From the NCBI GenBank assembly GCA_030427885.1, contig JAUICM010000002.1:434001-498000 (forward strand): a stretch of DNA of 64,000 nt, written 5' to 3'. The notes below the pieces were generated by a model. That model had not been told where the DNA came from, made no database searches, and was given only the letters and a program-made list of their open reading frames with translations. Below are positions 2,845-3,217 of the stretch, piece by piece. Positions within the stretch are counted from its first letter, which is position 1. Each line of letters starts with the position of its first letter. The position numbers and the translations under genes are program-made. Source of the DNA: Rhodothermia bacterium (GTDB lineage Bacteria > Bacteroidota > Rhodothermia > Balneolales > Balneolaceae).

Positions 2845-2919
2845 ATGAAATTTTCAAAACCAAATACCGCTTGTAAGCCCGCATGTACTTGTATGTGTAT
2901 GTGCATGATGTGCACCTGA
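2845..2919 (+). CDS. Cys/Met-rich leader peptide of a transcription attenuator (24 aa)
   Basis: A short ORF from ATG 2845 to TGA 2917-2919. Its 24 residues contain six Cys and five Met, and residues 14-23 read CTCMCMCMMC. I do not read it as a functional protein but as a sensor: ribosomes would stall in this run when Cys-tRNA or Met-tRNA is poorly charged. The stop codon abuts GAAGGGCTT (2918-2926), which can pair with the ascending arm of the terminator downstream. Lys11-Pro12 (AAGCCC, 2875-2880) can pair with the same segment, as in classic leaders. No Shine-Dalgarno sequence precedes the ATG, which is usual in this window. The sensing function is inference from sequence. Confidence 0.8.
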   Translation: MKFSKPNTACKPACTCMCMCMMCT

Positions 2920-2991
2920 AGGGCTTAGGTATATAGTTTTTAAGTAAACATAAAAAAGCCCTTTTGAATGCAATATCAGAAGGGCTTTTTT
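2875..2991 (+). promoter_or_regulatory. Transcription attenuator with mutually exclusive RNA hairpins
   Basis: Four segments are visible. Segment 1 is TAAGCCC (2874-2880) inside the leader ORF. Segment 2 is GAAGGGCTT(A) (2918-2927), overlapping the leader stop codon. Segment 3 is the A6-GCCCTTTTG stretch (2952-2966). Segment 4 is CAGAAGGGC followed by six T (2977-2991). Segments 1:2 give 7 pairs, 2:3 give 9 (one wobble) and 3:4 give about 15 pairs with a U-tract. A stalled ribosome over the Cys/Met codons would mask segment 1 and free 2 to pair with 3 (antiterminator). A ribosome finishing at the stop would cover segment 2 and allow the 3:4 terminator. This is the trp/his leader logic applied here to Cys/Met. 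Confidence 0.75.
2952..2991 (+). terminator. Intrinsic terminator of the Cys/Met attenuator
   Basis: Arms 2952-2966 and 2977-2991 form a stem of about 15 pairs around a 10-base loop (2967-2976); the descending arm ends in six T. The A-rich ascending arm also makes it usable by transcripts from the other strand. It may serve era read-through as well, although it lies 218 bases beyond era. Confidence 0.85.
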
Positions 2992-3037
2992 ATTGGGATT
3001 GATAATCTCAGACGTTCTTTAAAAATCATATTGCATT

Positions 3038-3156
3038 CTCATTAAGAAAGGTGGAGGGATCAGGTCCTGTGAAGCCTTGGCAACCGTTTCGGGTTAAACC
3101 GAAGAAAGGTGCTACATCCTGCTCAGTGTAAGTAAAGCCACACTGGGAAAGATGAG
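3038..3156 (+). ncRNA. SAM-I (S-box) riboswitch aptamer
   Basis: The segment shows the SAM-I core: P1 CTCAT (3038-3042) with ATGAG (3152-3156), then AGGTGGAGGGA, a kink-turn/P2 region ending in GCCTTGGCAACC, the conserved AAGGTGCTACATCC, a variable P4 hairpin and the closing GGGAAAGATGAG. The class binds S-adenosylmethionine and normally turns off methionine genes. The 3' P1 strand can alternatively pair with the terminator region: 3150-3166 against 3182-3198 gives 13 Watson-Crick and 2 wobble pairs with a 2-base internal mismatch. This is the antiterminator expected when SAM is absent. Confidence 0.95.
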
Positions 3157-3178
3157 TTCGACAAAGTGTTAGTGAAAC

Positions 3179-3217
3179 AGCCTTGTTCGGATTCATCTCT
3201 GAACAAGGCTTTTTTTG
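3179..3217 (+). terminator. SAM-riboswitch expression-platform terminator
   Basis: A perfect 10-bp stem, AGCCTTGTTC (3179-3188) with GAACAAGGCT (3201-3210), has a 12-base loop and is followed by six T, a G and three more T. Its ascending arm and loop are the target of the riboswitch antiterminator. Formation in high SAM would stop transcription 61 bases before the metY start. Confidence 0.93.

Follow-up and report, generated by a model that had tools for sequence, protein, structure and literature searches.

Tandem SAM-I systems have already been catalogued (PMC9481103). The closest to the arrangement described here are the T-box(Met)/SAM-I tandems, of which two cases are reported, plus seven in the reverse order (PMC9481103). 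In these RNAs a SAM-I riboswitch stands in series with a sensor of Met tRNA charging; each has an expression platform of its own, and together they read ‘uncharged tRNA AND NOT SAM’. Two independent transcription attenuators in series, SAM-I and AdoCbl, also precede a methionine gene, metE of Bacillus clausii, as cited in two sources (PMC9481103, PMC3641672). Attenuators built on cysteine codons are known as well: uORFC-8-2 upstream of cysS in Rhodobacterales (PMC8632094) and Cys-run leader peptides upstream of cys operons in Actinobacteria (PMC1262725). Both comprise a short ORF with Cys codons, which in the cysS case is followed by an intrinsic terminator. The Salmonella mgtCBR leader integrates two signals in one RNA, with one codon-rich ORF sensing tRNA charging (PMC3641672).

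The locus analysed here lies in the window, a 64,000-nucleotide stretch of DNA from a Balneolaceae genome, and differs from each of these systems. The T-box elements of the tandems bind tRNA directly and not through a translating ribosome, respond to Met only, and are counted at two loci (seven more in reverse), against about 98 loci for the present arrangement. Both sensors of the B. clausii metE tandem are aptamers, with no translation involved. The excerpts on the Cys attenuators describe no riboswitch in series and mention no Met codons, and for the mycobacterial cases report that no terminator was found. The two ORFs of mgtCBR sense ATP and proline and act additively, not as terminators in series, and the leader has no SAM aptamer (PMC3641672). 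The open-access literature searched yielded no case of a leader-peptide attenuator placed in series with a SAM riboswitch, which does not prove that none exists; neither ‘leader peptide’ nor ‘Balneol’ is mentioned in the main text of a 2025 survey of contiguous riboswitches (PMC12452182). A sequence-only reading of the window had called a tRNA-charging leader stacked on an S-box unusual. Given the T-box(Met)/SAM-I precedent this does not hold for charging sensors at large, while the leader-peptide form does appear to be new.

Results

Organization of the metY leader region

The interval between era and metY contains, in order, a promoter-like TTG/TA pair, a 24-codon ORF, a U-tailed hairpin, a GTTCTTT motif, a SAM-I aptamer and a second terminator. 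The features are as follows.

1841-2734: era, the gene 5' of the metY leader region
2809-2833, + strand: putative Bacteroidota-type promoter, with TTG at 2809-2811, 20 nt, and TA at 2832-2833; TA lies 13 nt before the leader ATG
2845-2919, + strand: leader ORF, MKFSKPNTACKPACTCMCMCMMCT, with the Cys/Met codon run at 2884-2913
2874-2880, + strand: region 1 (UAAGCCC), which in the fold would pair with region 2 if the leader is untranslated
2918-2926, + strand: region 2 (GAAGGGCUU), 5' arm of the antiterminator in the fold of 2918-2972, starting at the leader stop codon
2952-2991, + strand: terminator 1, regions 3 and 4; the region 3 strand 2956-2964 pairs with region 2
2966-2976, + strand: terminator-1 loop, GAAUGCAAUAU, complementary to 3028-3038
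3014-3020, + strand: boxA-like GUUCUUU, within GUUCUUUAAAAAU (3014-3026)
3028-3038, + strand: segment AUAUUGCAUUC, which pairs with the terminator-1 loop and abuts P1 of the SAM-I aptamer
3036-3158, + strand: SAM-I riboswitch aptamer (RF00162, 70.6 bits against a gathering score of 44.4, full length 1-108)
3150-3166 with about 3182-3198, + strand: SAM-I antiterminator, from the fold
3179-3217, + strand: terminator 2 (hairpin 3179-3210 plus U tract)
3278-4606, + strand: metY, O-acetylhomoserine sulfhydrylase, the regulated gene (TIGR01326, 685 bits, E 2e-206, above cut-off)

Both the leader ORF and the SAM-I riboswitch are oriented towards metY, which is followed on the same strand by an OsmC-like gene and then metX. 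The nearest relatives of this metY are also from Balneolaceae genomes. The whole leader fold was more stable than 200/200 shuffled sequences (z -4.2).

The leader encodes 24 residues, six of them Cys and four internal Met. A short ORF rich in codons for end-product amino acids, the hallmark of ribosome-mediated attenuators of the trp/his type, is predicted at 98 loci, and the last 20 residues of the 98 leaders are 20.1% Cys and 15.3% Met. The order and number of these residues differ freely among clades (CCMCM, CMCMCMMC, MSMSMSMMSC, CCCMCC). Codon differences in the leader frame were 135 synonymous and 320 nonsynonymous, compared with 77/350 and 86/326 in the other frames, a modest synonymous excess that lends slight support to translation of this frame. 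No Rfam covariance model scored above its gathering score at 2845-2995 and no T-box match was reported there; the best sub-threshold scores were L10_leader (26.5, needs 44) and Thr_leader (25.2, needs 55). The host genome contained no other exact match to TGYATGTGYATGTGY that could mark a second Cys/Met leader, and three matches with one mismatch.

Distribution of the leader and terminator 1

RF00162 was searched in 92 Balneolaceae genomes, and the copies were split into 82 preceding metY and 22 preceding metH. With a strict definition of the leader (an ATG-started ORF in which a stretch of 14 residues holds five or more Cys or Met), it was found at 69 of the 82 metY-linked loci, compared with 0.7% of dinucleotide shuffles; with relaxed start codons the count rose to 74/82. 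In four sister families within Balneolales (f2-f5) the leader was present at 24/26 loci, and it was absent from all 22 metH-linked copies and from all 34 loci sampled in other families of the class. Terminator 1 accompanied the leader at 74/74 Balneolaceae loci and 19/24 sister-family loci (93/98 together), and was found at 0/10 Balneolales loci that lack the leader and at 0/22 metH-linked copies. Conservation of the Cys/Met-run ORF excludes chance as its origin, and across the loci sampled the leader is a trait typical of Balneolales as an order and of metY as a gene.

Several loci depart from this pattern. Within Balneolaceae, metY-linked SAM-I copies without the leader are those of genera g19 and g8 and one g11 locus (L126). 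The g19 loci (L145, L154, L156, L158, L164), from small genomes, have boxA and SAM-I before metY without leader or terminator 1 and form a natural comparison set. The second SAM-I copy of the window genome (L001, G000:C2:377293-377406) lies upstream of a metH-like gene and has no leader, terminator 1 or boxA. Five f2 loci, mostly of genus g22 (L188-L192), keep the leader and showed no U-tract terminator 1 in a targeted scan; the mechanism may differ at these loci. At four of them (L188-L191, f2, g22) about 22 nt separate the end of the leader ORF, which adjoins boxA, from SAM-I, and codons 2-6 of the ORF show complementarity to the stretch immediately 5' of boxA (in L191, TTTAAATCACG with CGTGATTTAAA); a different mechanism is likely there. 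Two related genomes of family f18 (L233, L237) have a very short ORF, MTYCCC, ending 2-5 nt before the SAM-I aptamer, which could be due to chance.

Competing pairings in the first attenuator

Terminator 1 folds as a 16-pair hairpin of -20.3 kcal/mol located after the leader ORF, and an antiterminator near the leader stop codon competes for its 5' arm, as in trp/his-type attenuators. A duplex of regions 2 and 3 at or below -8 kcal/mol was found at 71/74 Balneolaceae and 19/24 sister-family loci; in the majority of loci the start of region 2 falls no further than about 10 nt from the leader stop. The mean 2:3 energy was -13.3 kcal/mol for a locus's own partners, compared with -10.7 for mismatched partners and -6.8 for shuffled region 2, and 0/1000 permutations of the partners matched the observed mean. 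The two strands covary among clades, from AAGGGCUU/AAGCCCUU in the window to CCGAAGGA/CCCUUCGG in genus g3, GCAGAGGG/CCCUCUGG in g11 and AGGAGAGCC/GGCUCUC in part of family f5.

Masked-RNA folding was consistent with the alternation of these pairings. With the ribosome covering the RNA to 2917 and the polymerase placed before region 4 (2918-2972), the 2:3 duplex formed; with folding started at 2931, as for a ribosome at the stop codon, the 3:4 terminator formed. Once region 4 was included the minimum free energy structure favoured the terminator in all states, so that read-through must be under kinetic control, which holds for every attenuator of this kind.

The SAM-I riboswitch

The complete SAM-I aptamer before metY proposed from the sequence alone was borne out by the covariance-model match, and the antiterminator at 3150-3166 with about 3182-3198 folded as had been described. 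Folding of the expression platform (3140-3200 and 3140-3215) gave antiterminator and terminator as mutually exclusive structures, and the antiterminator motif GATGAGT(T/G)CGA ... TTCGGA(T/C)TCATC was seen again in most aligned relatives.

A boxA-like element between the attenuators

The boxA-like element had been missed by the sequence-only reading. GTTCTTT precedes SAM-I at 79/82 metY-linked and 0/22 metH-linked copies in Balneolaceae and, by these counts, is among the most conserved features outside the aptamer. It usually lies 16-23 nt before the aptamer; the exceptions among the 79 are one at 10 nt and one at 54 nt. The latter (L120, G072) carries an insertion of about 35 nt between boxA and SAM-I, which may include an additional hairpin. 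Ribosomal RNA leaders were compared from the relatives G040 and G003, the window assembly having given no 16S match. Both rRNA leaders of G040 (L185, L187) carry GTTCTTT, within GTTCTTTGAGAAT, and the G003 rRNA leader carries GTTCTCT, within GTTCTCTGA; the candidate element thus matches the rRNA-leader boxA of its clade. Boxes of this type are known in the 5' leaders of rRNA and suhB (PMC5725501). The present one differs in lying between two attenuators and in being known by sequence, with putative NusB/S10 binding. By analogy with rRNA (PMC5725501), a natural guess is that it would protect the untranslated leader from Rho; elsewhere boxA can either block or promote Rho termination (PMC5725501).

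In families f6 and f20, which have no Cys/Met leader, GTTCTTT directly follows a promoter-like sequence and precedes SAM-I. In the simplest history, the promoter-boxA-SAM-I arrangement came first, and Balneolales later gained the leader-attenuator by insertion behind the promoter.

A boxB-like hairpin before boxA was also considered and is not claimed, its energy overall being -2.4 kcal/mol compared with -1.6 in shuffles. In genus g11 such a hairpin is visible by eye (CCGC..GCGG, TCCG..CGGA, TCAG..CTGA).

A helix between the terminator-1 loop and SAM-I P1

The terminator-1 loop is complementary to the segment abutting P1, a feature likewise missed before and the least understood part of the leader. 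At least eight consecutive pairs were found in 24 of 27 loci of the near clade to which the window belongs (genera g1, g2, g4, g5, g6, g10 and g21), where the distal pairs differ by genus yet remain paired (AAUAU/AUAUU, AACU/AGUU, AUGAU/AUCAU, AAA/UUU). Upon permutation of partners among 22 distinct sequences, 0/5000 trials reached the observed mean energy, a figure that is not a strict probability as the sequences are related. The helix is broken or shortened in L166, L180 and L183, and no counterpart was evident by eye in g3 or g11, outside the near clade. It could act only on read-through RNA and not on polymerases stopping at 2991. By keeping region 4 away, or by stacking on P1, it may couple the two sensors. 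Physical coupling of the attenuators by this covarying 8-10 bp helix, in the one clade, together with a boxA recruiting Nus factors between them, is put forward tentatively and is rather doubtful as a whole. If true, the attenuators would form a three-input leader with cross-talk, in which the SAM sensor is biased by whichever state the charging sensor has adopted, and not two independent gates.

Promoter position and alternative explanations

A TTG-N19-21-TA pattern was found 8-20 nt before the leader start at 64/74 Balneolaceae loci, compared with 11% of shuffles, with a modal spacing of 13 nt (42 loci). The rRNA promoters of the relative G040 read TTG-N21-TATCTTTG, a pattern which we take to be of the Bacteroidota type. 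By this spacing the metY transcript probably begins with the leader ATG or a few bases ahead of it, which would make the leader mRNA leaderless, or almost so, in most of Balneolaceae. The reading of the two attenuators as parts of one transcript had been staked on there being no transcription start between 2992 and 3037. A separate upstream transcript could own the leader and terminator 1, with a metY promoter at 2992-3035 and SAM-I as the sole control; a 9/12 sigma-70-like match at 2999-3026 would suit this, as would the good TTG-N-TAnnTTTG-like promoter found directly before boxA and SAM-I in f6 and f20. However, between terminator 1 and the aptamer TTG-N19-21-TA occurs at only 4/74 loci, below the rate in shuffles (15%), and it is the signal before the leader that is conserved; a promoter between the attenuators was rejected on this basis. 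The association of leader and terminator 1 with metY-linked SAM-I copies would also make no sense if they were unrelated to metY. The in silico evidence thus speaks against a start between 2992 and 3037, and the separate-transcript arrangement is quite improbable.

Two further explanations keep the single transcript and change what the leader does. Cys and Met are soft-metal ligands, and other bacteria have Cys-rich leader peptides that respond to metals. The peptide here could likewise be an arrest peptide, or a small peptide, that senses copper, thiols or oxidants instead of tRNA charging. The free variation in Cys/Met order and number is easier to reconcile with the counting of codons than with a defined binding site. 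Moreover, the regulated gene serves to make a Met precursor, and the downstream sensor reads SAM; a metal or thiol sensor is accordingly a very unlikely identity for the leader. Alternatively, the leader could act mainly through Rho and the boxA-like site, by way of leader translation and Nus-factor loading, with terminator 1 secondary. The conservation of GTTCTTT, the f2 loci with a leader and no terminator 1 in the scan, and the effects of boxA on Rho termination elsewhere, in both directions (PMC5725501), are in keeping with such a route. It is nonetheless very unlikely to be the main one: of the 98 leader loci, 93 have terminator 1 and 90 have a strong antiterminator competing with it, which shows terminator 1 to be under selection.

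Discussion

The proposal of two attenuators in series before metY was upheld: terminator 1, the SAM-I aptamer and terminator 2 are present as judged by folding, the RF00162 match and conservation, and the leader, terminator 1 and its antiterminator co-occur, with pairing kept across divergent sequences. The metY transcript, starting in the region of the leader ATG, is very probably controlled by ribosome-mediated Cys/Met attenuation in series with a standard SAM-I off-switch.

Under this mechanism, poor charging of Cys- or Met-tRNA would stall the ribosome in the Cys/Met run. With textbook footprint sizes, a ribosome stalled in 2884-2913 would cover region 1 but not region 2, and the free region 2 would pair with region 3, allowing the polymerase to read through terminator 1. 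With good charging, the ribosome would reach the stop codon and cover the abutting region 2, so that the 3:4 terminator would form and transcription would stop near 2991. In an untranslated leader, regions 1 and 2 would pair and terminator 1 would likewise be free to form. Polymerases that pass terminator 1 would end at terminator 2, near 3217, when SAM is high and would transcribe metY through the antiterminator when SAM is low. The ribosome stalling, the ligand response and the quantitative logic are what we infer here. Output of metY would be approximately the product of two read-through probabilities, and strong expression would therefore need both low charging and low SAM. The gate, described before as an AND, would be better expressed as ‘poor Cys/Met charging AND NOT SAM’, acting multiplicatively.

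The approximately 98 loci, all in one order, would represent a natural series of a ribosome-read charging sensor and a ligand-read SAM sensor controlling one gene. The SAM-I paralogue at metH, together with the leaderless metY copies in other families of the class, provides a clean evolutionary comparison, which points to a leader cassette acquired between the promoter and boxA/SAM-I in Balneolales. The arrangement makes testable how charging and SAM signals are combined, whether a helix couples the attenuators, and what role a boxA has before a riboswitch. For these bacteria, two off-switches in a row would restrict metY to cells short of both Cys/Met charging and SAM.
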